This document shows positions 11,918 through 52,693 of a DNA stretch of 64,000 nucleotides, piece by piece. The translations under genes were made by a program, and so were the position numbers. The stretch comes from Verrucomicrobiota bacterium (GTDB taxonomy: Bacteria > Verrucomicrobiota > Verrucomicrobiia > Chthoniobacterales > UBA10450), in the NCBI GenBank assembly GCA_003218375.1, contig QHNH01000008.1, positions 62,001 to 126,000 on the forward strand. The letters are read 5' to 3'. Numbering within the stretch: position 1 is the first letter of the stretch; each line of letters begins with the position of its first letter. Under the pieces are notes generated by a model that was given only the letters and a program-made list of their open reading frames with translations, searched no databases and was not told where the DNA came from.

Positions 11918-12754
11918 ATGACTGTTTTGGAGCTGCTGCAATCGACCACTGCGTATTTCAAGAAGCGTGGAGTCGAAAGCCCGCGGTTGAATGCCGAGCA
12001 TTTGCTCGCGCACATCCTGAAGCGAAAACGGATCGAGCTTTACCTGGAGTTTGAACGGCCGCTCGCGGAGACGGAACTGGCACCGCTGCGCGAACTCGTC
12101 CGGCGGCGCGGGCAAGGAGAACCGCTTCAACACTTGTTAGGCACGGTGGAGTTCGCCGGGCGCACTTTTCTTTGCGATAAGCGAGCGCTGGTGCCGCGAC
12201 CGGAAACAGAACAGCTCGCGGAATTCCTCAAGTCCGAAATCCGAAATCCGAAATCCGAAATTCTGGACGTCGGGACTGGCAGCGGTGTGATCGCGCTGAG
12301 TCTGGCGGCGAACTTTCCGGAGGCGACAGTGACCGCGACCGATATTTCCGAGGACGCCCTCGCCCTGGCGCGGGAAAATGCCGATCGCCTTGGCCTAACG
12401 AACCGGGTTGAATTTTTGACCGGCGACCTGCTGCTATACGTGACTCACGTATACGATCTGATCGTCGCCAATCTTCCTTATGTGGCGGCCGCGGATCGCG
12501 CGGTGCTTTCGCGCGAGGTCCAACATGATCCGGAGGTCGCGCTTTTTGGCGGCGAACGCGGCGACGAGATGGTGCGCAAGTTGATCGACGCGGCGCGTTC
12601 TCATCTGGCGCCAGGCGGCTTGCTTGCGCTTGAAGTGGGGCTCGGGCAGGCGGACGATTTAACGGCGCTGATGGCAGAAAAAAATTATCACGACATCAAG
12701 ACGGAACGCGATTATGGCGGGTTGATACGATTCCTTTTTGGGAGGTATGGATAA
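11918..12754 (+). CDS. prmC: Release factor glutamine N5-methyltransferase
   Basis: A 278-residue SAM-dependent enzyme that methylates the GGQ glutamine of release factors. The N-terminal helical domain (residues about 1-95) includes EHLLAHIL and GEPLQHLLG and precedes the Rossmann fold with LDVGTGSGVIALSLA (motif I) and the catalytic motif NLPY. NLPY replaces the more usual NPPY. Residues 106-115 (the KSEIRNPKSE segment) are encoded by a perfect 7-bp tandem repeat at 12233-12260, an in-frame expansion in the linker just before motif I. ATG 11918 gives the expected N-terminus. murA overlaps its 3' end by 8 bp. Confidence 0.95.
   Translation: MTVLELLQSTTAYFKKRGVESPRLNAEHLLAHILKRKRIELYLEFERPLAETELAPLRELVRRRGQGEPLQHLLGTVEFAGRTFLCDKRALVPRPETEQLAEFLKSEIRNPKSEILDVGTGSGVIALSLAANFPEATVTATDISEDALALARENADRLGLTNRVEFLTGDLLLYVTHVYDLIVANLPYVAAADRAVLSREVQHDPEVALFGGERGDEMVRKLIDAARSHLAPGGLLALEVGLGQADDLTALMAEKNYHDIKTERDYGGLIRFLFGRYG
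12233..12260. repeat. Four perfect 7-bp tandem repeats (TCCGAAA) inside prmC
   Basis: TCCGAAA occurs four times in succession. Three units equal seven codons, so the repeat can change by 21 bp without breaking the frame. It looks like a single arm of the dispersed tandem-repeat hairpins seen elsewhere in the window; no inverted arm follows here. Confidence 0.85.
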
Positions 12755-14444: not shown

Positions 14445-14474
14445 CGCTTCGCATAGCGAAGCGGCTACAGAAGA
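14445..14474. repeat. Palindromic repeat CGCTTCGCATAGCGAAGCG with GGCTACAGAAGA tail
   Basis: A perfect 8-bp-armed palindrome with a 12-bp tail. The same 30 bp recur identically at about 49771-49800. The CTA of the tail at 14465-14467 is the reverse-strand stop codon of nfo, so the repeat forms the end of that gene. Confidence 0.8.
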
Positions 14475-15349
14475 CTTCGCAGCGTTTTCATGTTCGCGAC
14501 GTCTTCGGCGAGGTCTTTCCCCTTCGGTGTCTCGAGGACTTTCGGAATTTTGCGGAAGCGCCGGTCGCGCATGATGAAGCGGAAGGCATCGAGACCGATC
14601 TTTCCTTTGCCGATGTGCTCGTGGCGATCGACGCGAGAGCCGCGCGCCGTTTTCGAATCGTTGAGATGCAACGCCGCGAGACGGTCCAGCCCGATCACCC
14701 GATCGAACTCGCGAAAGGTTTTCCTAACCGCGGCTTCGTTGCCGATGTCGTAACCGGCGGCGAAGACGTGCGCGGTATCGAGACAAACGCAGAGCCGTTC
14801 CGGTTCACGCACGTTGGCGATGATGGCGGCGAGATGCTCGAAGCGATCGCCGAGGCACGATCCCTGGCCGGCCGTCGTCTCGAGCGCGACCCGCGTTTTG
14901 ATTTTCGGCAGGCCGGCGAAGACCTGATCGAGCGAGCCAATTATTTTCGCGAGCCCCGCGGCTTCGCCCGCGCCGAGATGCGCTCCCGGGTGCATGACCA
15001 GGAATGGCAACTCGAGCTGGTCCGCGCGAACGAGTTCTTCCGAAAGCGCGCGAATTGAGTTCACGTGGAACTGCGGGTTCGTGGCCGCAAGGTTGATGAG
15101 GTAGTTCGCATGCGCGAACGCCGCCTGCAGTTCCGTCCGCTGCGCGTGATCGAGGAACGCCGAGATTTCTCCGGGCAACAACGGCCGGGCGAACCATTGC
15201 ATGTTGTTCTTCACGAAGATCTGCATGGCCGTGCAATCGATCGACCGCCCGCGCTCGATGGCGCGATGCACCCCGCCGCCGATGGACATGTGGGCGCCGA
15301 GGAGAATTTTCGAATGTCGATTTTCGATTTTCGATTTAGAGACGGTCAT
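14465..15349 (-). CDS. nfo: Endonuclease IV (AP endonuclease)
   Basis: Base-excision-repair enzyme that cleaves 5' of abasic sites using three metal ions. The core starts at LLGAHMSIGGGVHRA and contains MQIFVKNNMQW, FLVMHPGAHLG, VALETTAGQG, CLDTAHVFAAGYDI, LHLNDSK and the DRHEHIGKG metal-binding stretch, all as in Nfo. The first 15 residues (SKSKIENRHSKI region) come from a tandem-repeat arm at 15305-15349, so the native start may have been replaced by one in the repeat. The visible ATG at 15349 overlaps, by two bases and on the opposite strand, the ATG of the four-helix-bundle gene. The stop codon lies in a palindromic repeat. Confidence 0.95.
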   Translation of the reverse strand: MTVSKSKIENRHSKILLGAHMSIGGGVHRAIERGRSIDCTAMQIFVKNNMQWFARPLLPGEISAFLDHAQRTELQAAFAHANYLINLAATNPQFHVNSIRALSEELVRADQLELPFLVMHPGAHLGAGEAAGLAKIIGSLDQVFAGLPKIKTRVALETTAGQGSCLGDRFEHLAAIIANVREPERLCVCLDTAHVFAAGYDIGNEAAVRKTFREFDRVIGLDRLAALHLNDSKTARGSRVDRHEHIGKGKIGLDAFRFIMRDRRFRKIPKVLETPKGKDLAEDVANMKTLRSLL

Positions 15350-15741
15350 GAATGAAATCGAGATGAAGAATCGAACTAAGCAATTCGCGTTGCGTGTTCT
15401 GAAGATGGCGGACGCTATTCCTGCGAGTCGAAGCGGAAATGCAATCGCAAATCAAATTGTTCGCAGCAGCACTTCGGTAGCGGCTAATTACCGTGCGCTT
15501 TGCCGCGCGAAATCACGAGCCGATTTTATCAACAAGACGAGCATCGTGGAAGAAGAGGCGGACGAAAGCGGCTTCTGGCTCGAATTAATCGTCGATGCCG
15601 GTCTACTGACAGCGACTCGCATCAAACCTCTGCTCGCTGAAGCAGGCGAGATCACGGCGATGCTGGTTGCCAGCCGCAAGACCGCTGTCGCCCGTGGTCG
15701 CTGATTGGCAATCGAAAATCGAAATTCGAAAATCTAAAATC
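15305..15741. mobile_element. Putative cassette: four-helix-bundle gene enclosed by inverted tandem-repeat arms
   Basis: The left arm (about 15305-15338) is a run of TCGATTTT units and the right arm (15709-15741) is its inverted complement (ATCGAAAA units); about 15 bp match without a gap. Between them lies only the 118-residue four-helix-bundle gene. The left arm encodes the N-terminus of nfo on the reverse strand and the right arm supplies the reverse-strand stop codon of the AsmA-like gene. A gene-less pair of arms with the same unit lies at 49124-49212. No transposase, integrase or target duplication is visible. That this is a mobile unit is inference. Confidence 0.5.
15348..15704 (+). 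CDS. Four-helix-bundle protein of the S23/IVP family
   Basis: 118 residues, all alpha-helical by inspection. TKQFALRVLKMADAIP, then NAIANQIVRSSTSVAANYRAL, FINKTSIVEEEADESGFWLELI and a final helix MLVASRKTA match the family named from proteins encoded in 23S rRNA intervening sequences (TIGR02436), whose usual length is 110-130. Homologues include Avd, the accessory protein of diversity-generating retroelements, which binds RNA and the reverse transcriptase. Here no reverse transcriptase or template repeat is nearby. The gene fills a short interval between inverted tandem-repeat arms. Start could be ATG 15348 or ATG 15363. Function outside rRNA is unknown. Confidence 0.88.
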   Translation: MNEIEMKNRTKQFALRVLKMADAIPASRSGNAIANQIVRSSTSVAANYRALCRAKSRADFINKTSIVEEEADESGFWLELIVDAGLLTATRIKPLLAEAGEITAMLVASRKTAVARGR

Positions 15742-18160
15742 TCTTCGGGTGCCAGTTCGGCTTGGCGATGCTGCCTTCGCCTTTGTATTCGAAAAGTTTG
15801 TACATCGGCGTGAGGACCACGCCGGCGCCGCCGGCTTCGATGCGGATGTCGAAATCGAGTTTGTCCTCGAGGAAATGGACGTCGCCGTGGCCGATCATGC
15901 CGAAGAGTTTGCCGGACACCTTGAAATCGTCGGTGTGAATCACGCCATTCTTGATGGTGAACGTGGATTTGGCCTGGCGCGCGAGACTGTAACCGGCGCC
16001 GGGAATAATCGCGGAGAGCAGCTGGGAGAGCGGGCCAAAGATCGGGATCGCGAAGATGTCGCCATCAGTGACCTTCGCGGTACCGGCGCCCTGCATGGCG
16101 CGAGCATCGCTGCCGGCGCTGGTCCATTCGTAAGCGCCGCTCAACCGGCCGTGGGCGGTCTGGTATTTGAAATAGAGATCGGCCAGGCGCGGGAAATCGA
16201 CGCCGTCCAGGGTGAGATTCGCGCGATAACGATTGTCGTTTCTGGCCAGGGAAAAATCCGCGCCGCCGAGAACCTCGCCGTTAAAAAGTTTGCCGTCGAT
16301 GTCGATCAACTGAAGACGGTTGTCGGTAAAAAGGAGGCGGCCGCTGACGCGGTCGATCGGGAGCGTCTTGCCCAGGAAAACGTAATCCATGCCCGCGGGC
16401 GCATCGACCTTGATCTCGATGTGGTCATTCGCACCGTGAAAATGGAAGACACCGTTCACTACCAGGTTCGGCGGTTGCCGGAACTTGTAGGGCGCGACTT
16501 CCTTGAAATATTTAGGGTCGACCCAGACGATGGCTTCCATGAGGCGCAGCGCGCTCTTGATGTCTTTGAAGCGGATTTCGTGGTGCGCGAAATCGTAGGC
16601 TATCGAGCCGGTCCCGACGCCTTCCTCGCGGAGGACGCGGAGATTATCGAGATGGAGCGCGCCATTTTCGAGACGCAACGCCGCGCTCGCTTCATTCATC
16701 CAGGCGCCGCGGAATCGAGTGCGCTGGGTGGCGATGGTTCCTTCGCCGGCCCAGGTGACCGGGTCCCGGCCCGGGCCATGCAAGGCGAAACGAATGGAAG
16801 GCGGCCGGCTCCAAACCCATTCCGCGAGGAACCGGCCCATCTCGGGTGAGGTGAAGGCGCGGAAGATAATGGGATCGATCGCGCTATCGACGGTGATCCG
16901 GAAATCATTGGGTGCGTCGAGGAGATCGCCGCGCAGCTCGCCCGATTCATGCCGGAGGCGCAGATCGCGGATCATCCCGCGGTCGCCGTCCCAGGAAAAA
17001 TCGGCCGTCAATTTCAGGAGCGGCACGGTTTTGTAACTGAATCGCTCGGCGGCGACGCGGCCGATCACGTTGATCTTCGGTTTTTCCTCGGCGAAATTCG
17101 CAGCGCCGGAAAGCTCGAGCAGCGGCGGCGAGTTGAAGGTCGCGTCCGCGAGCAACTGAGGGAACCCGACCGCCTCGAGAAAGCGCTTCGCATCAAGCGT
17201 GCTCCGGCCCTGGAACTCGGCGGCATTGCTTTCGCGGCTCCATGTGGCGCGCCCGGAAAAATCCCCGGCGTTATCGGACCAGCTGCATTGATTGATCTGG
17301 AGCGTCTGGTTGGCCCACTCGCCGGCGAGGGAAAGATTCGCCATCTCGTAATCGCCGCGCCGGAGCCGGTCTCCCTTCAAGGTCGCTTCGGCGTGGACGG
17401 TTTCGAATCGGGAAAGGTCGCCGGCGAATTTCACCTGCAGCGAGGGACCTTCGCCGGGGAAAGTGAACCGGCGCAATTCGTCCGCCACGCGATGAATGAG
17501 AAGCAAGCGCTGCCGCCATTCTTCATCTGAGATTTCGTCGGACGGCTTGTAATCGCTCCGTTTGATCAACTGGCCCGTCGCCGAAATTCGGACCCCGCAG
17601 AAAATGCCTTCGACCTGGCTGACGTAAATTTGTTCCGGCGGAAAATAAACATGGGCATGCAATTCCTTGATCTGGGTCTTCGGCGTGCCGGGCGCGGCGG
17701 CGGGATTGGGGATCGTCAGCTCGGCGCCGCGGACATCGAGGGCATTGAGAAAAGGCTGATGATGGAGGAGCGCGGCATAATTGATGTCGAGCGCGACTTC
17801 GCTGATCACCGCGAGCGTGTTCTCGCGATTTTTGAAATCGTAGATCCGGACGTTCTGCGCGATCAGTCCGCGAACCGGATCAACCGTCAGTCGTTGAATC
17901 GATGCTTCCACGCCGCGCTTGTGCAGTTCCTCCGAAACGCGGTCGCGCCATTCCTTGCCGAACCCGCGCTTCGCCAGATACCAGGCGGTCCAGCCAAAGA
18001 TGAGAACGAACGCGACAATCGTCAGGCGCAGGATGCGGCGTGATTGGGAATGGTGAACTTTCGCGCGACGGCGGTAGAATTGCCGAGCCAGAGACGGCGG
18101 CGTGGGTTCTAAAACCGGAGGCACACGGAGAACGTCCAATGCCCGACGTCCAACGTCCAA
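15734..18160 (-). CDS. Large AsmA-like membrane-anchored protein
   Basis: About 800 residues. A single transmembrane helix (ILRLTIVAFVLIFGWTAWYL, about 43-62) is followed by a long periplasmic beta-rich region typical of AsmA/YhdP/TamB-like proteins. It has DFSLARNDNRYRANLTLDG-like strands and ends with the AsmA C-terminal pattern TGDGxV..GKLFGMIGHGDVHFLEDKLDFDI. Such proteins are thought to bridge inner and outer membranes in phospholipid transport; function here is inferred. The first dozen residues (MDVGRRALDVLR) are encoded by a tandem-repeat arm, so the true start may be the GTG about 12 codons in or one of several later alternatives. The stop codon lies in the right arm of the four-helix cassette. 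Confidence 0.75.
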   Translation of the reverse strand: MDVGRRALDVLRVPPVLEPTPPSLARQFYRRRAKVHHSQSRRILRLTIVAFVLIFGWTAWYLAKRGFGKEWRDRVSEELHKRGVEASIQRLTVDPVRGLIAQNVRIYDFKNRENTLAVISEVALDINYAALLHHQPFLNALDVRGAELTIPNPAAAPGTPKTQIKELHAHVYFPPEQIYVSQVEGIFCGVRISATGQLIKRSDYKPSDEISDEEWRQRLLLIHRVADELRRFTFPGEGPSLQVKFAGDLSRFETVHAEATLKGDRLRRGDYEMANLSLAGEWANQTLQINQCSWSDNAGDFSGRATWSRESNAAEFQGRSTLDAKRFLEAVGFPQLLADATFNSPPLLELSGAANFAEEKPKINVIGRVAAERFSYKTVPLLKLTADFSWDGDRGMIRDLRLRHESGELRGDLLDAPNDFRITVDSAIDPIIFRAFTSPEMGRFLAEWVWSRPPSIRFALHGPGRDPVTWAGEGTIATQRTRFRGAWMNEASAALRLENGALHLDNLRVLREEGVGTGSIAYDFAHHEIRFKDIKSALRLMEAIVWVDPKYFKEVAPYKFRQPPNLVVNGVFHFHGANDHIEIKVDAPAGMDYVFLGKTLPIDRVSGRLLFTDNRLQLIDIDGKLFNGEVLGGADFSLARNDNRYRANLTLDGVDFPRLADLYFKYQTAHGRLSGAYEWTSAGSDARAMQGAGTAKVTDGDIFAIPIFGPLSQLLSAIIPGAGYSLARQAKSTFTIKNGVIHTDDFKVSGKLFGMIGHGDVHFLEDKLDFDIRIEAGGAGVVLTPMYKLFEYKGEGSIAKPNWHPKRF

Positions 18161-18162
18161 TG
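18131..18162. repeat. Tandem-repeat arm, ACGTCCAA/T units
   Basis: AACGTCCAAT, then CGACGTCCAACGTCCAATG: three to four imperfect copies of ACGTCCA. The same unit builds both arms of the hairpin at 52581-52693. Here it forms the putative 5' end of the reverse-strand AsmA-like gene. I see no inverted arm close by. Confidence 0.75.
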
Positions 18163-18186: not shown

Positions 18187-18253
18187 GGACAGGATTTACA
18201 GGATTAACAGGATTGGTTTTCTTTAATCCTGTTTAATCCTGTAAATCCTGTCC
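18187..18253. repeat. Tandem-repeat hairpin, ACAGGATT units
   Basis: The left arm GGACAGGATTTACAGGATTA plus ACAGGATT is mirrored by AATCCTGTTTAATCCTGTAA plus ATCCTGTCC, with a 10-nt loop and one inserted base. It is nearly a perfect 28-bp stem. It lies between the divergent AsmA-like and DUF420 genes, so it sits in both 5' regions. Confidence 0.9.
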
Positions 18254-20250: not shown

Positions 20251-20352
20251 GGTTGAGAGGAAGAGAGGTTGAGAGGTTGAGAGGACATCGAAATTCCGCG
20301 CTTCGGTTGTTCGCAAATCCTCTCAACCTCTCAACTACTCAACCCCTCAACT
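20251..20352. repeat. Tandem-repeat hairpin, GGTTGAGA units
   Basis: The left arm GGTTGAGAGGAAGAGAGGTT, GAGAGGTTGAGAGG is mirrored by CCTCTCAACCTCTCAACTAC, TCAACCCCTCAAC. The unit is 8 bp. It fills the whole gap between the LysM gene and accA and comes within 3 bp of the accA start. Confidence 0.9.
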
Positions 20353-32384: not shown

Positions 32385-33629
32385 ATGAAACGAAAACGCG
32401 TGGTCGTTCTGGGCGCGACGGGATCGATCGGTGAGAGCGCGCTGAAGGTGGCGCACGATATTCCAGAACGGATGGAGATCGTCGGCCTGGCGGCGAACCG
32501 GAACGCACAGAAGCTGGCAGCACAGGCGAACAAAGTGCGGCCGCCGGCGGTTTGTTTGGTGGACGAAACGAAAGTCGGGGAGCTGCGAGCTGCGTTGGAA
32601 TATGAGCCCCGCATCTTCTCAGGCGAAAGCGGGCTGGTGGAGATCGCGTGCTTGGCGGAAGCGGAGATGGTGCTGGTCGCCGTTGTCGGAACCGGCGGGT
32701 TGCAGCCGGCTTTGGCGGCGATCGAGGCGGGAAAAGATCTGGCGGTGGCGAGCAAGGAAATTCTCGTGATGGCGGGGGAGATCGTGATGCGGGAGGCGGG
32801 GAAGAAAGGCGTTCAGATTTTGCCCGTCGATAGTGAGCACAACGCGATTTTTCAGTGCCTTGAAGGAAGGTTTCAGGGTTCAGGGTTCAGGGTTCAGGAG
32901 GGAGGAAGCGCGGAACGAAACTTTTCTGAAATCCGAAACCTGAAACCTGAAACCTGTGCAGATGTTCGACGACTGATCCTGACAGCGTCGGGCGGGCCGT
33001 TTCGGAATACGCCGGCGAGTGAGTTTGAAGGGATCACGGTCGAGCAGGCGTTGAAGCATCCGACCTGGAACATGGGGCCGAAGATCACGATCGATTCGGC
33101 GACGCTGTTTAATAAGGGGCTCGAGATGATCGAGGCCCATTGGCTCTTCGGCGTGGAAATGAAACGGGTGGAAGTGGTGATCCATCCGCAGAGCATCGTC
33201 CACTCGATGGTCGAATTCAGCGACGGATCTGTCCTGGCGCAGCTCAGCCATTCGGACATGTGTTTTCCGATTCAATACGCCGTTACCTGGCCGGAACGGG
33301 TGGCGAATTCGTTGCCGCCGCTCGATTTCGGGAGGGTGCGCCAGTTGGAGTTCGCGACACCCCGTTACGAAGATTTTCCGGCGCTAAACCTGGCGCGCCG
33401 CGCGGGAGAGATCGGCGGCACATTGCCGGCGGTGTTGAACGCGGCGAACGAGATCGCGGTCTCAGCTTTTCTTGAGCGCAAGATTTCCTTCCCGCGGATC
33501 TGGGAGACGGTCTCGGCCGTCATGGACCGGCACACGAACGTTGCGCACCCTGATCTGGATGCCATATTGCGCGCCGATCTATGGGCCCGCGACGAAGCTG
33601 CGGGATTCGTTAAATCGTTACATTGTTAA
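32385..33629 (+). CDS. dxr: 1-deoxy-D-xylulose 5-phosphate reductoisomerase
   Basis: Second enzyme of the MEP isoprenoid pathway; NADPH-dependent. 414 residues. VVLGATGSIGESAL (NADPH loop), VASKEILVMAG, PVDSEHNAIFQCL with metal ligands D149 and E151, LTASGGPFRNTP, HPTWNMGPKITIDSATLFNKGLE (given here as HPTWNMGPKITIDSATLFNK) and NAANEIAV are all present. Residues about 162-191 are an insertion encoded by a tandem-repeat hairpin (32871-32956), in frame and in a surface loop between the DSEHNA and TASGGP motifs. The last residues and stop codon come from another repeat arm. Despite this, all active-site motifs are intact. Confidence 0.95.
   Translation: MKRKRVVVLGATGSIGESALKVAHDIPERMEIVGLAANRNAQKLAAQANKVRPPAVCLVDETKVGELRAALEYEPRIFSGESGLVEIACLAEAEMVLVAVVGTGGLQPALAAIEAGKDLAVASKEILVMAGEIVMREAGKKGVQILPVDSEHNAIFQCLEGRFQGSGFRVQEGGSAERNFSEIRNLKPETCADVRRLILTASGGPFRNTPASEFEGITVEQALKHPTWNMGPKITIDSATLFNKGLEMIEAHWLFGVEMKRVEVVIHPQSIVHSMVEFSDGSVLAQLSHSDMCFPIQYAVTWPERVANSLPPLDFGRVRQLEFATPRYEDFPALNLARRAGEIGGTLPAVLNAANEIAVSAFLERKISFPRIWETVSAVMDRHTNVAHPDLDAILRADLWARDEAAGFVKSLHC
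32871..32956. repeat. Tandem-repeat hairpin inserted in frame in dxr (GGTTCAG units)
   Basis: The left arm has TTTCAGGGTTCAGGGTTCAG and GGTTCAGG (7-bp unit GGTTCAG). The right arm has CTGAAATCCGAAACCTGAAA and CCTGAAACCTG (unit AAACCTG), the inverted complement. The loop is about 27 bp. Length and phase preserve the dxr reading frame. Confidence 0.93.
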
Positions 33630-35804: not shown

Positions 35805-37675
35805 ACTACTGCGATAGTCCGTACCGCTATCGTCGTCGCGCGACGCGCGAGGTAATGGTGGGCCGCGTCGGGATCGGCGCCGCGAACCCGATCCGGGTCC
35901 AGTCCATGATTACGTGCGACACGATGGACACCGAGGCGTCCATCGCGCAGACGATCGAGCTGGCCGAAGCCGGCTGCGAGATCGTGCGGATCACGGCGCC
36001 GACGGTGAAGGACGCGGCGAATTTGCAGAACATCGTGCGCGGATTGCGCGAGCGCGGCTGCGATGTCCCGATCGTGGCCGATATTCATTTCAAACCCGAA
36101 GCCGCGATGGAAGCGGCCAGGTGGGTGGAGAAAGTCCGAATCAATCCCGGGAACTACGCGGATTCGAAGAAGTTCAAGATCCTCGAATACACGGACGAGC
36201 AGTACGCCGCGGAACTGGAGCGCATTCGCGAACGGTTCACGCCGCTGGTGAAGCTTTGCCAGGAGCTCGGGCGCGCTCTGCGCATCGGGACCAATCACGG
36301 TTCGCTCTCGGACCGGATCATGAATCGCTATGGGGACACGCCGCTGGGAATGGTGGAGAGCGCGCTCGAATTCGCCCGGATCGCGCGCGATCTCGATTAT
36401 CACGCGTTCGTGTTCTCGATGAAATCGAGCAACCCCAAGGTGATGATCAACGCCTATCGTTTGTTGGTCGCGCGGTTGAGCGAAGAAGGAGCGGATTGGA
36501 ATTACCCAATCCATCTCGGGGTGACCGAGGCGGGCGAAGGCGAAGATGCGCGAATCAAGAGCGCGATTGGGATTGGATCGCTTCTCCAGGATGGGATCGG
36601 CGATACGATTCGCGTTTCGCTCACGGAGGACAGCATTCATGAAATCCCGGTGGCGCGGGCATTGGTCGCGATGATCGCGACAAGCTCCAACATCCAAGCT
36701 CCAAGCTCCAAACCCGAATTATCGTTCGACCCGTTTTCGTATTCGCGCCGCGCGACCGAGACGATCGAGTGCGATGGAGTTCGGGTGGGCGGCGAAGAAC
36801 TAATGCGAGTAGTCGTTAGGCGGGCCACCTTTGAAAAAGTCGCGCACAAGATCGACCGGCTGGGGGATTACAAACCGGAAATCGTTTATGAGGACGCGCG
36901 CATTCGTGAGATCGATCCTCGCGATGACGAGGCGGTGGCGCGCGTGAATGAGAACGATGAGCCGCAGCTCGTCACGGTGCGCGATGACGTCGATCTGCCA
37001 GTGATCGTCGCGTTTCGCTTGCTTGCGGCAAAACTGGCGGCGCGCCATCCGATTCTTTTGAAGGACGTGCTTGCGAATGACGAAGCACGAATGACGAATG
37101 CCGAAGGAGGTCCGAATGACCGAATGACGAAAAGCAATTCGGGCTTCGGCATTCCTTCGTCATTAGACATTCGTCATTCGTCATTTCTCCACACCCTGTT
37201 GAGCGCTGCAACAAACATTGGCTCACTATTGTGCGATGGGATCGGGGACGCGGTGTTGATCCAGGGAGAGGAGGCGCCGGGGCAGGCGTTGCGCCTGAGT
37301 TACAACATTCTCCAGGCGGCCGGCTCCCGTATTTTCAAGACCGATTATGTGGCGTGCCCCTCGTGTGGGCGAACCCTGTTCAATCTCCAGACGACGACGG
37401 CGCGAATCAAAGCCGCGACTCTGCATCTCAAGGGAGTGAAGATCGCGATCATGGGTTGCATCGTAAATGGACCCGGGGAAATGGCGGACGCGGATTTCGG
37501 CTACGTCGGGGGCGCTCCCGGCAAGGTGAATCTTTACGTCGGCAAAACCGCGGTGAAATTCAACATCCCGGAAGCCGAGGCGGTGGAGCGTCTGCAGGAT
37601 TTGATCCGGGAACATGGCAAATGGGTGGAACCGGCCGAGCCGGTTAACGCTGGCGTGGAGGCCGCTTCGCTGTAA
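35801..37675 (+). CDS. ispG: (E)-4-hydroxy-3-methylbut-2-enyl-diphosphate synthase, long form
   Basis: Penultimate MEP-pathway enzyme, a 4Fe-4S protein. 624 residues, the long type with an extra middle domain also found in Chlamydiae, Bacteroidetes and plants. TIM-barrel motifs include NPIRVQSMITCDTMD, VADIHFKP, RINPGNYAD and GTNHGSLSDRIM. Cluster ligands are C519 and C522 (ACPSCGRTL), C553 (MGCIVNGPGE) and E560. Two tandem-repeat segments interrupt the middle domain in frame: residues about 295-304 (36682-36711) and 425-463 (37075-37187). GTG 35801 overlaps the previous stop. Iron-sulfur motifs remain intact, so the enzyme is probably active. Confidence 0.95.
   Translation: MNYCDSPYRYRRRATREVMVGRVGIGAANPIRVQSMITCDTMDTEASIAQTIELAEAGCEIVRITAPTVKDAANLQNIVRGLRERGCDVPIVADIHFKPEAAMEAARWVEKVRINPGNYADSKKFKILEYTDEQYAAELERIRERFTPLVKLCQELGRALRIGTNHGSLSDRIMNRYGDTPLGMVESALEFARIARDLDYHAFVFSMKSSNPKVMINAYRLLVARLSEEGADWNYPIHLGVTEAGEGEDARIKSAIGIGSLLQDGIGDTIRVSLTEDSIHEIPVARALVAMIATSSNIQAPSSKPELSFDPFSYSRRATETIECDGVRVGGEELMRVVVRRATFEKVAHKIDRLGDYKPEIVYEDARIREIDPRDDEAVARVNENDEPQLVTVRDDVDLPVIVAFRLLAAKLAARHPILLKDVLANDEARMTNAEGGPNDRMTKSNSGFGIPSSLDIRHSSFLHTLLSAATNIGSLLCDGIGDAVLIQGEEAPGQALRLSYNILQAAGSRIFKTDYVACPSCGRTLFNLQTTTARIKAATLHLKGVKIAIMGCIVNGPGEMADADFGYVGGAPGKVNLYVGKTAVKFNIPEAEAVERLQDLIREHGKWVEPAEPVNAGVEAASL
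36682..36711. repeat. Tandem-repeat arm inside ispG, AGCTCCA units
   Basis: CAAGCTCCAACATCCAAGCT and CCAAGCTCCA: three to four copies of a 7-bp unit identical to that in the hairpin at 19195-19330. It is in frame and encodes a Ser/Pro-rich spacer. No inverted arm follows. Confidence 0.85.
37075..37187. repeat. Tandem-repeat hairpin inserted in frame in ispG (AATGACG units)
   Basis: Left arm GAATGACGAAGCACGAATGA, CGAATGCCGAAGG, CCGAATGACCGAATGACG; right arm TTCGGCATTCCTTCGTCATT, CATTCGTCATTCGTCATT. It is read through as residues about 425-463 of IspG (NDEARMTNAEGGPNDRMTKS and following). The unit matches the hairpin at 24151-24275. Confidence 0.93.
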
Positions 37676-38605: not shown

Positions 38606-41600
38606 ATGTCTCGTTATCTAAAGACTCTTTTCCCGATCACGCTGGTGGTCGCACTCGTGGCCGCTTTCTTCACCTTCCGCGGTGAGGCGCAGCAACCAAA
38701 GCCGGCCAGTAAAACCGCCAACACCGTCGCCCCCATCACGATCCTGCCGGTCGCTTTCGCCGAAACCGGGGAAGTGCGGGATCTGCCCGACATGAAAACA
38801 CTCGACCTCTCAGAGGTGCCTCCCAACAGCGAGATTCCAGGGCGAGAAATAAACGAGCTGAACTCGACGCTGGTAAAGACACCAAATGCGGCCTCGGCGA
38901 GGATTCCTTCCCTTGATGCCGCGCTTACCGGGAAGCCGGCGGGGCCGATGGCGCCGAGCGCGGTCGGTGCGCCTATCGTTACTTTCGATGGTTTGGACGA
39001 CACCATTAACACGGTCTTTTACGGCACCCAGTTTGCGCCCTCGGACGAGAACATCGCGGTCGGTCCCAATGACGTCGTTCAGACGGTTAACAACGGATTT
39101 CGGATTTGGAGTAAGACCGGGGCGCCAAAGGTCGCAGCGAAACAGATCAGCAAACTGTTCACAAAACTGGGTGGAGTGTGCGCTAGTTTCGATGATGGCG
39201 ACCCGGTCGTGCAGCATGATCGGATGGCGGATCGCTGGATCATTTCCCAGTTCGGCTTCGCCAGCCAAACCGCGCCGCCCTACCATGAATGCATCGCGGT
39301 TTCCAAGGGAAGCGATCCGGCGGGCGCGTACTATGCCTACGATTTTGTCACCGTGGGAAGCAACTTCCCTGACTATCCCAAGCTTACGACATGGCCGGAC
39401 GGTTATTACATGACGGTCAATCAATTCCTGGCGCCGACGCTAAGCTTCAACGGCACGGGGGTGTATGCCTTTGACCGGGCCAAGATGCTTGTGGGCGATC
39501 CAACGGCGGGAGCGATTTATTTTAACCTCGATCTGACCTCGCATCCGGAAGGCATCTTTGCGATGCAGCCGACCGATATGGACGGTTTCCTTTTGCCGCC
39601 CACGGGCGATCCGAACGTGTTCGCCTACATTCTTTCGGATGAGTTTGAAAGCGCGCCTTTCAACGTGGATGCGCTGCGCATGTTTAATTTCCTCGCGGAC
39701 TTCACGACGCCGGCTAACTCCACCTTCACCGAGCGCGCCGAGAGCCCGCTCGCCATGGCTGCCTACGACCCTCGCTATCCCACCGGCTCGAACGGACGAA
39801 ACGACATTAAGCAGCCACCGACGGCGAACAACGCCGTCGATGCACTTGATAACATCGGATACCACCTGATGTACCGGTTGGAGTATCGCCGGCTCGCGGC
39901 CGCCAATGAAAACCTCACCGGCAGCTTTACGGTCAACGTTAGTGGCGTCGATCCCTCGGCTAGTAATGCCAACTACCAGGCCGGCATTCGCTATTTCGAA
40001 ATCAGACGAACCACCAACACCACGCCCGGGACCTATGTGATGTTCGACCAGGCGACCTTTTCGCCTGACGCCGGCAATCCGGCCACCGGCCTGAACCGCT
40101 GGCTGCCGAGTGCCGCGATTGACGTCCAAGGCAACCTGGCCGTCAGCTACAGCACCTCGAGCACGACGGTCTTCCCGTCGATCACGTATGCCGGCCGAGA
40201 CTTTAACGCCGCCGGTATTCCCGCGGCCGGGCTGAGCACCGAAACAACGCTCTTCGCCGGCGCCGGGTCCCAAATTGGCAGCGGCCATCGCTGGGGTGAC
40301 TACCAGTCTCTGCAAGTCGATCCGAGCGACGATTGCACGTTCTGGACGACCAATCAGTATTATGCTGTAACCAGCTCGTTCAACTGGAAGACCCGCATCG
40401 GTGCGTTCAAGTTTGCGTCCTGCACCGCGCCGAGCCAGGGCACACTCACTGGCACCGTCACGGCGTGCGATACCGGCGCGCCGCTGTCGAATGTGCTGGT
40501 TCAGGTCTCGAACGGATTCTCGGCCGGGACTGGTCCGGACGGAAAATATTCCATCCAATTGCCGGCACCGGCTGGTGGACTAACCTCGACGGCTTACACG
40601 GTGACGTTTTCGAGCCCCGGCCGCCTTTGCACGGCAAGTGGACCCTTCACGGTGACAATTGTTGATCAGCAGACCAAGACCCAAGACGCGTGCTTGAATG
40701 GTGTAGCCCATCCGATTGTCGATACCACCAATCCCGTTTCGGTCGTACTTTCTCCGACCGCCGGCAACGGCAATGGGATTGTCGATCCGAATGAATGCAA
40801 CGTGATTAATGTGCGCTTGACCAACACCGGTTGCGCCACTGGACGCACGGTTTCGGCAGTGCTGACCACGAACACTCCGGGGGTCACCGTTAATTCGCCC
40901 GGCAGCTCGACCTACCCCGATATCCCGATCGATGCGCTCGGCTTTAATCAACAGCCGTTCCGCTTCACCACCTCACCGGCATTTGTTTGCGGAACCGCGA
41001 TTAACTTCACGCTGACCGCGACGTTCAACGGCGGCACGGCGGTGAGCACCTTCAGCATCCCAACGTGCACGGAAACGCAGCCGACGCAGTCCGCCACCGG
41101 CAACCTCGATAGCACCGATCCGACGACCCCCGGCAATGGACGCCTGGGACGCAACGGTGCTATCAGCACTTGCTCGGGCAAGGGTTGCCCCGGTAGCCTG
41201 AACGCGACCAACAACCATTACGATGTCGTTTCGTTCGTCAACAGCGGCCCACTCTCGGCCTGCGCGACGATCACCCTGAACTCAGCGAATGGCGTCCAGT
41301 TGATTGGCGCCTCGTATAACGGCCCGTTCGTTCCGGCGAACTTCTGCACCAACTATGCTGGGGACCCGGGTGGCAGCGCCAACGGCGACGTGAAATGGCA
41401 GGAGACGGTCGCGGCGGGAGGCACCATTAATGTGGTGGTTTGGGAAGTGACCGCCAACCAGGCGAGCACCTTTAATGCGGGCGCAGGCACTCCCTACACC
41501 ATCAAAGTGGACGGTCTGAGTGCTCCCGCGCTGCCTGGCAATGGCCCGTGTGCCACCACGCTGAGCACGCAGGTGACCCCGACCGCGACAACGCTCGGCA

Positions 41601-42763
41601 ATTCGATTGCCGATAGGGCAACGCTCACCACGGGTGGAAGTCCGTCCGGCTCGATCACGTTCAGGTTGTTCGGCCCGAACAATGGGACCTGCACCGGATC
41701 ACCGATCTTCACCTCGGTCGTCCCCGTGAATGGCGACGGTACCTATCTTTCGCAATCCTTCACCCCGACTGCGACCGGCGTCTACAACTGGATCGCTGCT
41801 TACAGCGGTGATGCTAATAACGCCGCCGCCAGCGGTGCTTGCGGCGACGCGAATGAATCCACCACGGTAGCGGCAGCCCCAACGCCGACCGCGACGCCAA
41901 CCGCAACGGCCACGGCGACCGCGACCGCGACTGCCACCGCCACGGCGACGCCAACCGCGACCCCGGCCTCGCAAACGTTGAACCTGTCGACGCGCATGCG
42001 CACCGACACGGGAAATAACGTCGGCATCGGTGGTTTCACCATCACCGGCGCTGTGCCGAAACACGTGATCATCCGGGCCATCGGTCCTTCGTTGACCAAG
42101 TTCGGCTTCACGGCGGCGGAAGTCCTGCCTGATCCGACCCTCGAGGTCCACGGCCCCGGCGCGTTCGGAACCATCACGAACAACAACTGGAGAGATTCGC
42201 AGGAAGCCCAGATCAAGGCGGACGGCCTCGCGCCGACCAACGACCTTGAATCCGCGATCGACGCGACTCTGCCGGCCGGAGCGTATACCGCGATTATCCG
42301 CGGCAATACCGGTACTACTCCTGCGGGTATCTGCCTGTTCGAGGTTTACGATCTCGACACGGCGGCGACCTCGAAGCTGGCTAACCTGAGCACGCGCGCC
42401 TTCGTCGGCACCGGCAATACGGTGGTCATCGCCGGATTCGTCCTCGGCAATAACGCGGGGAACGATCGCATCGTTGTGCGCGGTCTCGGCCCGAGCCTGG
42501 CCGCGTTCGGCATAGCGAACACCCTGGCCGATCCGACCTTGGAACTGCGCGACGAAAACGGCGTATTGATCCTTGCGAATAACGATTGGCAGGACAATGC
42601 CGCCCAGGCTGCAACGATTACCGCAGCCGGCCTGGCGCCGTCGAACACGAAGGAATCTGCGATCGCGGCCACGCTGCCGCCCGGTCTCTACACGGCGATT
42701 CTGTCCGGCCTCAACGGCGGGACTGGCGTAGGCCTGGTGGAAGTCTACGATCGGGGACCGTAG
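38606..42763 (+). CDS. Large secreted multidomain protein with C-terminal tandem modules
   Basis: 1385 residues. N-terminal signal/anchor (about 7-28). The large N-terminal domain (about 130-600) has FDGLDDTINTVFYGTQFAPS, DPVVQHDRMADRWIISQFGF and GSGHRWGDYQSLQVDPSDDC, a pattern of secreted proteins of unknown function that I read as a beta-propeller-like region. A carboxypeptidase-regulatory-like (SpaA-type) domain follows (about 610-700, GTVTACDTGAPLSNVLVQVS), then two Ig-like regions, a Pro/Thr/Ala linker (41880-41968) and two C-terminal modules (about 1130-1256 and 1257-1385). The modules are homologous to those of the beta-helix protein at 9622. It is probably exported and cell-surface or matrix associated; the terminal modules may mediate sorting or attachment. 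Confidence 0.85.
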   Translation: MSRYLKTLFPITLVVALVAAFFTFRGEAQQPKPASKTANTVAPITILPVAFAETGEVRDLPDMKTLDLSEVPPNSEIPGREINELNSTLVKTPNAASARIPSLDAALTGKPAGPMAPSAVGAPIVTFDGLDDTINTVFYGTQFAPSDENIAVGPNDVVQTVNNGFRIWSKTGAPKVAAKQISKLFTKLGGVCASFDDGDPVVQHDRMADRWIISQFGFASQTAPPYHECIAVSKGSDPAGAYYAYDFVTVGSNFPDYPKLTTWPDGYYMTVNQFLAPTLSFNGTGVYAFDRAKMLVGDPTAGAIYFNLDLTSHPEGIFAMQPTDMDGFLLPPTGDPNVFAYILSDEFESAPFNVDALRMFNFLADFTTPANSTFTERAESPLAMAAYDPRYPTGSNGRNDIKQPPTANNAVDALDNIGYHLMYRLEYRRLAAANENLTGSFTVNVSGVDPSASNANYQAGIRYFEIRRTTNTTPGTYVMFDQATFSPDAGNPATGLNRWLPSAAIDVQGNLAVSYSTSSTTVFPSITYAGRDFNAAGIPAAGLSTETTLFAGAGSQIGSGHRWGDYQSLQVDPSDDCTFWTTNQYYAVTSSFNWKTRIGAFKFASCTAPSQGTLTGTVTACDTGAPLSNVLVQVSNGFSAGTGPDGKYSIQLPAPAGGLTSTAYTVTFSSPGRLCTASGPFTVTIVDQQTKTQDACLNGVAHPIVDTTNPVSVVLSPTAGNGNGIVDPNECNVINVRLTNTGCATGRTVSAVLTTNTPGVTVNSPGSSTYPDIPIDALGFNQQPFRFTTSPAFVCGTAINFTLTATFNGGTAVSTFSIPTCTETQPTQSATGNLDSTDPTTPGNGRLGRNGAISTCSGKGCPGSLNATNNHYDVVSFVNSGPLSACATITLNSANGVQLIGASYNGPFVPANFCTNYAGDPGGSANGDVKWQETVAAGGTINVVVWEVTANQASTFNAGAGTPYTIKVDGLSAPALPGNGPCATTLSTQVTPTATTLGNSIADRATLTTGGSPSGSITFRLFGPNNGTCTGSPIFTSVVPVNGDGTYLSQSFTPTATGVYNWIAAYSGDANNAAASGACGDANESTTVAAAPTPTATPTATATATATATATATATPTATPASQTLNLSTRMRTDTGNNVGIGGFTITGAVPKHVIIRAIGPSLTKFGFTAAEVLPDPTLEVHGPGAFGTITNNNWRDSQEAQIKADGLAPTNDLESAIDATLPAGAYTAIIRGNTGTTPAGICLFEVYDLDTAATSKLANLSTRAFVGTGNTVVIAGFVLGNNAGNDRIVVRGLGPSLAAFGIANTLADPTLELRDENGVLILANNDWQDNAAQAATITAAGLAPSNTKESAIAATLPPGLYTAILSGLNGGTGVGLVEVYDRGP
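41880..41968. repeat. Low-complexity Pro/Thr/Ala coding repeat
   Basis: Irregular repeats of CCGACCGCGACG / CCAACCGCAACG / GCGACCGCGACC type, giving a run of Thr-Ala and Thr-Pro dipeptides. It is in frame and forms a flexible linker between the Ig-like region and the C-terminal modules. Likely prone to length changes. Confidence 0.85.
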
Positions 42764-47744: not shown

Positions 47745-49121
47745 ATGAGCGAAGAAAACGATAATCAGCCATCGCCGCAAACCGACACTCAGTCGGACCG
47801 TCCGCGGCGTCCACGCCGGCGATTTCCCCGACGGCATAGCGGCCCGCGCGACCGCGGCCCGCAGGAACAACGCGGCGATCTCAATGAACCCGGCGAACGG
47901 GTTGAATCGTCAGTCGCGGACGAGACTGGAGGCGCTCCCCGCGTCAATGAAGGCGATCAGCGCGATGAATCGACGCGTGGCGAGGGCGGACCTTCGCAGA
48001 ACGGGGAGATCGAGCGCGAACCGGAATTCGGCGACGGCATTATCGAGATCTCCGGCAAAGGTTTTGGATTCCTGCGCGACGCGAAACGGAACTTCGTCCA
48101 GACGCCGAACGACATTTTCGTCACGCCCGAGATCGTGCGCCGTTTCGCTCTCCGCGACGGCATGTGGATTTACGGCGAGACCCGCCGCGGCAATCGCGGC
48201 CCGCAACTGACCCGGCTCAACAAGATCAATGAGGATGAGCCGACGAAGTATCAGGGCCTGCGGCCGTTCGAAGAGCTGACCACGATCAATCCGAACCGGA
48301 AGATCAAGCTCGAGACCGTCCCGGACCGTTACACAACGCGCATCATGGACTTGATGACGCCGCTCGGGATGGGTCAGCGCGGCCTGATTGTGGCGCCGCC
48401 GCGCACTGGCAAAACGACCTTGCTCCATCACATCGCCGACGCCGTCGTAAAAAATCATCCGGACATGAAACTGATCATTCTCCTGGTCGACGAACGCCCG
48501 GAGGAAGTGACGGATTTCCGGCGGTCCTGTCCGGGGGCCGAGATCATGGCCAGCTCGAACGACAGCGATATCAAGAGTCACACCCGCATCGCCCAGCTCG
48601 CGGTCGAGCGCGCCAAGCGTCTCGTCGAAGCCGGCAAAGATGTGTTCATCCTGCTCGACTCGATCACCCGCACCGCCCGCGCCTTCAACAATGCGATGGG
48701 CGGCGGCGGTCGGACCATGAGCGGCGGTATCGATGCGCGCGCCATGGAAACTCCGAGAAAATTGTTCTCCGCGGCGCGCAACACGGAAGAGGCCGGCTCG
48801 CTCACGATCGTCGCTACGGCGTTGATCGATACCGGCAGCCGGATGGACGAGCTGATTTTTCAGGAATTCAAAGGCACCGGGAACATGGAAATGGTCCTCG
48901 ATCGCAAAATCAGCGATCAGCGCATTTATCCGGCAGTGGATATTTTCCTGTCCGGCACTCGCCGCGAGGAATTGCTCCTCCAATCGTGGGAGCTGGAGAA
49001 GATCAATTTGATCCGGCGCGGACTCGCGGGCCACAAGCCCGGCGAAGCGATCGAGCGTTTGCTGATGTTCGTGAAGAAATTCCCGACCAACGAGCAGATG
49101 CTCAAAGGCATCCCGGGATAG
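47745..49121 (+). CDS. rho: Transcription termination factor Rho
   Basis: 458 residues. The N-terminal 90 residues are disordered and Arg/Gly/Glu/Pro-rich (RPRRPRRRFPRR, RDRGPQEQRGDL) instead of the usual helical Rho N-terminal domain. After it come the RNA-binding cold-shock-like fold (DGIIEISGKGFGFLR, 97-111), Walker A PPRTGKTT (218-225), Walker B (VFILLDSITRTARAFN), the Q-loop region and GTGNMEMVLDRK. It is an ATP-dependent RNA helicase/translocase that ends transcription. Downstream is a tandem-repeat hairpin that begins directly after the stop codon. Confidence 0.97.
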   Translation: MSEENDNQPSPQTDTQSDRPRRPRRRFPRRHSGPRDRGPQEQRGDLNEPGERVESSVADETGGAPRVNEGDQRDESTRGEGGPSQNGEIEREPEFGDGIIEISGKGFGFLRDAKRNFVQTPNDIFVTPEIVRRFALRDGMWIYGETRRGNRGPQLTRLNKINEDEPTKYQGLRPFEELTTINPNRKIKLETVPDRYTTRIMDLMTPLGMGQRGLIVAPPRTGKTTLLHHIADAVVKNHPDMKLIILLVDERPEEVTDFRRSCPGAEIMASSNDSDIKSHTRIAQLAVERAKRLVEAGKDVFILLDSITRTARAFNNAMGGGGRTMSGGIDARAMETPRKLFSAARNTEEAGSLTIVATALIDTGSRMDELIFQEFKGTGNMEMVLDRKISDQRIYPAVDIFLSGTRREELLLQSWELEKINLIRRGLAGHKPGEAIERLLMFVKKFPTNEQMLKGIPG

Positions 49122-49123
49122 TT

Positions 49124-49212
49124 ATTTTCGAATTTCGATTGGCGATTTTCGATTTGGGAAATCGGCAAGCGATCATGCAATCGAAAATCGAGAATCGAGA
49201 ATCGAAAATTCT
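49124..49212. repeat. Tandem-repeat hairpin without gene, TCGATTTT units
   Basis: Left arm TTTTCGAATTTCGATTGGCG, ATTTTCGATTT; right arm AATCGAAAATCGAGAATCGA and GAATCGAAAATTC. The units and inverted arrangement are as in the cassette at 15305-15741, but the 20-25 bp between the arms contain no gene. The right arm encodes the start of the next ORF. Confidence 0.92.
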
Positions 49213-49717
49213 AGAAGTCGATTGGGAAGTCCTGCCGCCGGAAGAGAAGCGGAAGCGTCAGGGTCTCGAGCCGCTCTTCAAATGGCTCGCGTTCATTATG
49301 GATGAAATCATCCGCGTCCCCGGCACGAATTTCCGCTTCGGCCTCGATCCGTTGATCGGATTGATCCCCGGAATCGGCGACACCAGCTCCGCCCTGGTTT
49401 CCGCTTTCGCCCTTGTCCAGGCCGTCCGGCTCGGCGTTCCGAAAGTTCTCCTTATGCGCATGGCGCTCAACATCCTGGTCAACGAAGTCGTCGGCATCGT
49501 CCCGGTCGTAGGCGATGCTTTCTCGTTTTGGTTCAAATCGAATGCGCGCAATTACGAAATCATCAAGACTCACCGGCTCGGCCCCAGCGCGCCGCGGAAG
49601 GGCGACTGGCTTTTTGTAATCAGCGTGCTCTTCGTGCTCGTTGCCGTCGTCGTCGTCGGAATCGCGCTCAGTTTCCTGGTCCTGGGAGCGATGGTCCGTT
49701 TGCTTTTCGGTCGCTGA
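49175..49717 (+). CDS. DUF4112 membrane protein
   Basis: 180 residues. The conserved core is IIRVPGTNFRFGLDPLIGLI, PGIGDTSSALVSAFALVQAV, RLGVPKVLLMRMALNILVNE and GIVPVVGDAFSFWFKSNARN, followed by a C-terminal hydrophobic helix, as in DUF4112. Function unknown. The first 12 residues (MQSKIENRESKI) are encoded by the right arm of a tandem-repeat hairpin, so the ATG at 49175 may be a start gained from the repeat. Confidence 0.82.
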   Translation: MQSKIENRESKILEVDWEVLPPEEKRKRQGLEPLFKWLAFIMDEIIRVPGTNFRFGLDPLIGLIPGIGDTSSALVSAFALVQAVRLGVPKVLLMRMALNILVNEVVGIVPVVGDAFSFWFKSNARNYEIIKTHRLGPSAPRKGDWLFVISVLFVLVAVVVVGIALSFLVLGAMVRLLFGR

Positions 49718-49720
49718 CTT

Positions 49721-49800
49721 CTGTAGCCGCTTCGCCATGCGAAGCGCGGGAGAAATCGGCGCTGCAAAAACGCTTCGCATAGCGAAGCGGCTACAGAAGA
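49721..49800. repeat. Two GTAGCCGC/GCGGCTAC palindromes
   Basis: CTGTAGCCGCTTCGCCATGCGAAGCG (split: CTGTAGCCGCTTCGCC, ATGCGAAGCG) is followed by CGCTTCGCATAGCGAAGCGG, CTACAG. The second part is identical over 30 bp to 14445-14474. It lies between convergent DUF4112 and glnE genes. Confidence 0.85.
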
Positions 49801-49812
49801 ACGCTCAGTCTG

Positions 49813-52542: not shown

Positions 52543-52580
52543 CAGCGCGAAACCTACATTCAGAGTGGCAAAGAAAAGGG

Positions 52581-52693
52581 GAAAACGCCGAACGTCCAAC
52601 GTCGAACGCCCAATATCGAATTCAGAAAAGGCGTAATCGAACCGCCTCCTAGTTCGACATTGGGCGTTCGGCGTTGGGCGTTCGACGTTTTCC
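52581..52693. repeat. Tandem-repeat hairpin, ACGTCCA/ACGCCCA units
   Basis: Left arm GAAAACGCCGAACGTCCAAC, GTCGAACGCCCAATATCGAA; right arm TTCGACATTGGGCGTTCGGC, GTTGGGCGTTCGACGTTTTC. Nearly perfect inverted complements of about 40 bp with a 30-bp loop. It lies between the divergently read 5' region of glnE and the rhomboid 3' end. Confidence 0.93.

Follow-up and report, generated by a model that had tools for sequence, protein, structure and literature searches.

Palindromes of 7-bp tandem repeats at gene junctions and inside genes, and their apparent translation into the N-termini of nfo and a DUF4112 gene

Do the repeat arms that overlap predicted gene starts in this genome supply protein N-termini, or do they mislead the start calls? 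A preliminary description of the 64-kb stretch of DNA analyzed here (the window) had proposed that tandem-repeat arms encode the N-termini of three genes (a DUF4112 gene, nfo and an AsmA-like gene), with the elements either donating start codons or hiding true starts further downstream. These possibilities were evaluated by comparison with relatives (denoted G001 onwards, with G000 as the genome of the window).

Period-7 arms were found at the named sites via TRF and a lag scan of the window. The scan returned 12 lag-7 arrays, as compared with none in nine and one in the other of ten first-order Markov sequences, and 0-3 arrays at each other lag from 4 to 12; lag 14, a multiple of 7, yielded six. 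Across 264 kb of the same contig, 13 inverted arm pairs were identified at lag 7, three at lag 8 and none at lags 5 and 9-12, with one lag-6 match inside a coding stretch left out of the hairpin count. Small palindromic elements of 7-bp tandem repeats hence occupy both gene junctions and gene interiors (Table 1). An Rfam search returned one tRNA only.

Table 1. Positions of genes, arms and hairpins in the window.
Feature	Position	Strand	Remarks
Single arm (TCCGAAA)	12225..12268		Interdomain position in prmC, in frame
nfo (endonuclease IV, PF01261)	14465..15349	-	Residues 5-15 arm-encoded; conserved core from L16
nfo-side (inner) arm of IVP element	about 15306..15336		Apparently translated in nfo
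IVP gene (S23, PF05635/TIGR02436)	15348..15704	+	Fills the space between the two arms
AsmA-side (outer) arm of IVP element	about 15710..15740		At the AsmA-like stop codon
AsmA-like gene	15734..18124	-	Start GTG 18124 supported by relatives; annotated TTG 18160 unsupported
Heptamer array (AACGTCC type)	18131..18162		Upstream of AsmA-like start; noncoding by comparison
Hairpin	32868..32955 (arms 32868-32897/32926-32955)		In frame within dxr
Single arm (AAGCTCC)	36680..36718		In frame within ispG/gcpE
Hairpin	37076..37185 (arms 37076-37108/37153-37185)		In frame within ispG/gcpE; G006 without it
Hairpin arm 1	about 49124..49154		Right after the rho stop codon (rho ORF end at 49121)
Hairpin loop, 24 nt	49155..49178	+	Contains DUF4112 ATG 49175-49177
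DUF4112 gene (PF13430)	49175..49717	+	Profile match and comparison with relatives
Hairpin arm 2	49179..49209		In frame in DUF4112 N-terminus (SKIENRESKI)
Hairpin	52580..52693 (arms 52580-52620/52653-52693)		Upstream of glnE

Repeats of other kinds were also observed in the window. A perfect 21-nt inverted repeat of ACAGGATT units, with period 9-10, lies between the AsmA-like and DUF420 genes (18187-18253). A period-8 GGTTGAGA hairpin (20252-20351), with two more copies in the contig, fills exactly the gap between a stop and a start codon, and no matching resident IVP was found for it in G000. A short tandem repeat with periods of 24-36 bp is located inside ORF 38606-42763 (41879-41962).

At the rho-DUF4112 junction, the two arms are 31 nt each and 87% complementary, and the hairpin, which contains no ORF, has the same heptamer as the nfo element. 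The N-terminus of the DUF4112 protein reads MQSKIENRESKILEVDWEVL, with residues about 2-12 arm-encoded by coordinates, and its ATG is the loop codon just ahead of arm 2, outside either arm. Since no in-frame ATG, GTG or TTG was found between the arm and the conserved domain, the arm would have to be translated. Six species harbor a heptamer hairpin at this site, and in all of them the start codon, be it ATG (G000, G013, G022), TTG (G004, G006) or GTG (G005), abuts arm 2; the hairpins of G013 and G022 are degenerate, fall below the 12/16 threshold and were assessed by eye. Owing to an indel in the arm region, the GTG of G005 and the conserved segment stand in different frames up to a second indel, and the DUF4112 copies of G005 and G002 (L058, L060) bear frameshifts, real or assembly errors, that of G002 lying downstream. 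A different palindrome (CTGTAGCGGC type, called by eye except in G002) occupies the site in G001, G002, G003 and G007, also in frame, and, following a GTG, its arm reads ...PPLQEVDWEVLPP or something close to it. Among relatives, both this site and that of nfo are armless or carry other heptamers or another palindrome.

In G005, the two DUF4112 indels together seem to bring the reading back into the frame begun at the GTG that precedes arm 2. An inverted repeat of a different family (CTGTAGCCGCTTCGC ... GCGAAGCGGCTACAG) is located directly 3' of the DUF4112 gene (49723-49806), and a similar repeat is seen at the rho-DUF4112 junction of G001, G002, G003 and G007. A further dispersed repeat (GTCATCCCGAGCCGCGCAGACGGCGAGGGACCTC type) lies near nfo or DUF4112 in several relatives (L018, L054, L055 and G007 sequences).

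The element at nfo presents the same arm geometry (31 nt each, 87% complementary), with the arms set 373 nt apart. Read along the minus strand, the end of the AsmA-like gene (15734, inside the outer arm) is followed by the IVP gene in opposite orientation, the nfo ATG (15349), the inner arm and nfo itself. The nfo N-terminus reads MTVSKSKIENRHSKILLGAH, with residues about 5-15 arm-encoded by coordinates, and its ATG lies inside the leader of the IVP gene, not in an arm, overlapping the IVP ATG (15348) on the opposite strand as CATG. This start codon most likely came in with the element, judging from its sequence context, since the CATGAAC/T context is shared by L115, L126, L134 and L121, its nearest IVP relatives elsewhere in these genomes, and is present in 5 among all 61 IVPs with an upstream start. 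The same IVP-element insertion is found at nfo in G004.

The N-terminus of nfo contains arms in 11 of the 21 tabulated family members (23 members had a match; G013 and G014 (fragment) were left out of the table), around a short loop in nine of them and around the IVP gene in G000 and G004. Every arm-bearing nfo has its start codon upstream of the inner arm, and no in-frame ATG, GTG or TTG was found between arm and conserved core in ten of the 11, the lone exception being a TTG in G019, 3 nt before GAHMS. As the nfo of the window is among the ten, its arm, too, would have to be translated. In the comparison with start regions lacking the repeat, suggested in the preliminary description, relatives with no arm or an untranslated one start beside the core, as in MTKILLGAHMS (G017) and MRQRLLLGAHMS (G020, in which a heptamer hairpin lies upstream of the ATG), though some armless ones (G021, G009) bear tails of about 20 residues. 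The alignment with E. coli endonuclease IV (Nfo) begins at query residue 17, and in the structure model of the window nfo residues 1-12 have pLDDT <50 and the first strand spans residues 17-22. Judging by these comparisons, the repeats at nfo and DUF4112 seem to undergo translation and to form a new beginning of the protein, probably a disordered one.

Relatives of the AsmA-like gene begin at M/V-PPVLEP, which corresponds to GTG 18124 here, and the proposed N-terminus MDVGRRALDV was therefore rejected, the arm being upstream sequence. Likewise, the glnE start at TTG 52599, within an arm, was discarded in favor of ATG 52542 (MNLPDW), which the comparison supports. Judged against relatives, then, the automatic start of the AsmA-like gene is wrong and glnE shows the same error. 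Arm encoding thus appears to hold for two of the three genes originally proposed, DUF4112 and nfo, and is lost for the third. The competing proposal of downstream starts and misled annotation fits that third gene and glnE, which had not been listed, and is improbable for nfo and DUF4112. Donation of start codons is borne out for nfo by an ATG within the IVP-gene leader, in G004 as well, and is likely for DUF4112, given a loop start in six species (two of them degenerate); in neither case does the start codon belong to an arm.

Arms are also found in frame inside proteins. In dxr, the hairpin follows IFQCL, at a place where G005 has another heptamer, G006 a shorter form and solved DXR structures a shorter variable stretch; ispG harbors two in-frame insertions, one absent in G006, and prmC a single in-frame arm. 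Stop triplets were counted in 16 such stretches, six from the window and ten from nfo starts of relatives: of the 17 found, none falls in the coding phase (0), eight fall in phase 1 and nine in phase 2. This count indicates consistency with translation and is not independent proof of it, because dxr, ispG and prmC must be open to work. The reading of these arrays follows from simple arithmetic. Since seven and three are coprime, a period-7 array encodes one cyclic heptapeptide in all three frames, so that an AATCGAA array yields NRKSKIE, IENRKSK or SKIENRK depending on frame, and the frames of a perfect array on a given strand are either all open or all closed. Unrelated genes can therefore acquire the same peptide (KSKIENR) with no need for homology. 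The observation that two unrelated genes share nearly the same peptide was correct, and homology of the nfo and DUF4112 N-termini was rejected, as frame arithmetic explains the shared peptide.

The IVP gene within the nfo element allowed the arms to be examined across genomes. TIGR02436 genes number 13 in G000, and 73 matches were obtained in eight genomes of the genus, of which 68 were analyzed for arms, the weakest five listed being left out. Flanking inverted arms (at least 20/28 complementary) were detected at 59 of the 68 loci, compared with 0 of 100 random sites of G000 under the same criterion; clear arms are missing at the other nine. Their period is mostly 7, in some cases 8 and in a few 6. 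Among 80 further loci in named genomes of many phyla, the best of a larger set and all of one IVP subfamily, 74 of 79 testable loci presented inverted arms, the random-site control being that of G000 rather than of these genomes, and the best lag was 7 in 61 and 8 in 13. At the sequence level, arm similarity tracks the IVP clade: it correlates with IVP identity (Mantel r = 0.52, versus a maximum of 0.17 in 2000 permutations) over 57 of the 68 loci, the IVP tree using 61. With homologous-flank pairs left out, arm sharing (12/14) occurs in 1-3% of pairs below 50% IVP identity, 28% at 50-60, 23% at 60-70 and 78% (n = 9) at 70-80. Pairs more than 80% identical occupy orthologous sites, so IVP genes look vertically kept. 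Different IVP types and arms were also seen between the same flanks (L008 with L125 and L135; L004 with L124), as though one slot had served more than once.

Of the 13 solo hairpins in the 264 kb, eight matched a resident IVP heptamer, as judged by eye. Genomes with the cognate IVP contain more arrays of a given heptamer (stratified permutation p = 0.0017; five heptamers, eight genomes), with the proviso that one of the five, AGGATGA, was a former reversed-pattern control chosen after it had been seen. There are clear exceptions: G000 and G005, both without the AACGTCC type of IVP, are rich in AACGTCC arrays, and G007 has 32 AAGTAGG matches without that IVP. The IVP structure model (pLDDT 97) matches the S23-family structures 2rld and 2gsc, 2rld being the best (1.5e-06), and the closest named sequences among the matches listed (90%) belong to a Verrucomicrobia MAG and a Spartobacteria MAG, which points to a soil lineage of Verrucomicrobiota (Chthoniobacterales-type) as the likely source. 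PHROGs and PADLOC searches with the IVP protein returned 0 families each. A resident RT_1 reverse transcriptase was rejected as driver, since no RT_1 (PF00078) match was found in G000. In the one literature library searched, no paper was found that connects S23/IVP genes with inverted heptamer arms, apart from the Coxiella IVS.

Taken from the comparisons are the arms, their positions, the open frame, the lack of downstream standard starts and the variation of elements at the same site. The explanation we favor, with a probability of about 0.7, is that the arms are parts of selfish palindromes associated with IVP genes, and that proteins tolerate the inner arm in the form of a disordered N-terminal tail. 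Each palindrome would be small, its ends being a pair of inverted arms with about four heptamers apiece, and would belong to a family that also flanks the IVP/S23 four-helix-bundle genes, and surviving copies would mark low-harm sites such as stop-start junctions and protein loops. At the rho-DUF4112 and AsmA-nfo junctions, arm 1 would remain intergenic, the start codon would be provided by the loop or the IVP-gene leader, and arm 2 would be translated in phase with the gene, placing a short disordered tail before the conserved domain. A heptamer array free of stops, open in all frames, would be easily tolerated as coding sequence. From the same data we infer the initiation site, the functional neutrality of the tail and a role of the IVP protein or its RNA in driving arm spread, where IVP would act as a hypothetical mobility factor. 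A loop or leader start codon may suffice for initiation, because no Shine-Dalgarno enrichment was seen in this lineage (13/151 versus 16/151 random, in a rough test that relied on simple gene calling and on first ATGs), and initiation may also occur at non-standard ATT, ATC or CTG codons in or after the arm. Recent movement of whole IVP elements is hypothetical, given the orthologous sites of pairs above 80% identity. More tentatively, and with somewhat less than even odds, IVP genes across many phyla could form the core of an undescribed class of mobile palindromes. Each IVP clade would recognize heptamer arms of its own and spread arm-only hairpins in trans, with neither a transposase nor a reverse transcriptase, and these hairpins would keep feeding frame-independent heptapeptide repeats into host proteins, along with new start codons and N-terminal tails.

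The main rival, which is compatible with the selfish-palindrome reading, regards the hairpins as maintained regulatory structures: the start codon would be presented by the loop or next to it, and the stem would be a site for RNase III or would switch translation between cotranscribed genes, by analogy with the processing of 23S rRNA IVS or with what has been proposed for the TAACTGA repeats. Folding of the DUF4112 leader (z = -4.1) is in line with this idea, as are the arm complementarity kept while heptamers differ among species and the RNase III cleavage described for the Coxiella IVS (PMC4990558). Against it, a heptamer hairpin is missing at the nfo and DUF4112 sites in about half of the relatives, the nfo/IVP stretch shows no unusual stability (z = -1.1), and a leader switch is senseless inside dxr and ispG; we rate it as rather unlikely. 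Less probable again is that all three N-termini are annotation artefacts, the arms being untranslated leader with translation beginning after them. The AsmA-like gene and glnE do conform to this, and the rough Shine-Dalgarno test is a reminder that start annotation is unreliable here, but nfo and DUF4112 offer no standard start between arm and conserved core, the next downstream nfo ATG sits inside the first beta strand, which would be cut by starting there, and dxr, ispG and prmC carry in-frame arms internally. Plain replication slippage, generating neutral heptamer microsatellites with neither mobile element nor IVP link, would account for the variation of unit number and sequence among relatives, as tandem repeats slip, and is nevertheless very improbable, being largely refuted by the occurrence of arms as inverted pairs and further opposed by their enrichment at IVP loci over random sites and by the irregular signatures (e.g. 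CCAGAGAAGCTCC, GACGAAGGAATGACGA) that solo hairpins share with resident IVP arms.

If the selfish-palindrome reading is right, it accounts for the peptide repeats that recur at protein starts in these bacteria, and automatic start calls beside heptamer arrays can err in both directions. The loci would constitute a natural experiment in the origin of new N-termini, and, for the orphan S23/IVP family, the clade-specific inverted tandem arms would serve as a genomic signature through which its function can be tested.

Intergenic heptamer direct repeats, often beside start codons, are known in cyanobacteria as STRR. The TAACTGA repeats of marine Beggiatoaceae are of the same kind (PMC4679880); they differ from the elements described here in having one fixed heptamer, nearly always direct rather than inverted, mostly upstream of starts and untranslated. 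The 23S rRNA IVS resemble the nfo element in protein family (PF05635/TIGR02436), terminal inverted repeats and compact size, and the Coxiella IVS has tandem GACAGAT heptamers before its ORF (PMC4990558), but the nfo element sits between nfo and the AsmA-like gene rather than in 23S rRNA, and solo arm pairs without an ORF are dispersed here. In REPIN/RAYT systems, a gene is flanked by and associated with a repeat whose dispersed inverted doublets form hairpins (PMC3116915), and the dispersed inverted doublets found here are likewise related to repeats flanking the IVP gene. The gene between the arms of the nfo element, however, is PF05635 and not a tyrosine transposase (RAYT), its product, an S23/Avd-like four-helix bundle, is not known to have any catalytic activity, and the arms are tandem 7-mers (some 8, few 6). 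The likeness to Avd of diversity-generating retroelements consists in a weak match of the IVP model to 4dwl (TMq 0.78, E-value 0.037), and the reverse transcriptase of such elements (PF00078/RT_1) sets them apart from G000. The elements are therefore neither a RAYT system nor a diversity-generating retroelement, nor are they located in 23S rRNA. Rickettsia palindromic elements (RPEs) are palindromes inserted in frame in unrelated protein genes, where they add a recurrent peptide at tolerated places (PMC10969869), much as in-frame palindromes do here in dxr, ispG, nfo and DUF4112, with prmC contributing a single arm. The distinction is one of architecture only: RPEs span about 150 bp and encode a conserved peptide, whereas the elements reported here have 7-bp tandem arms, are frame-independent, use many heptamers and are linked to IVP genes.
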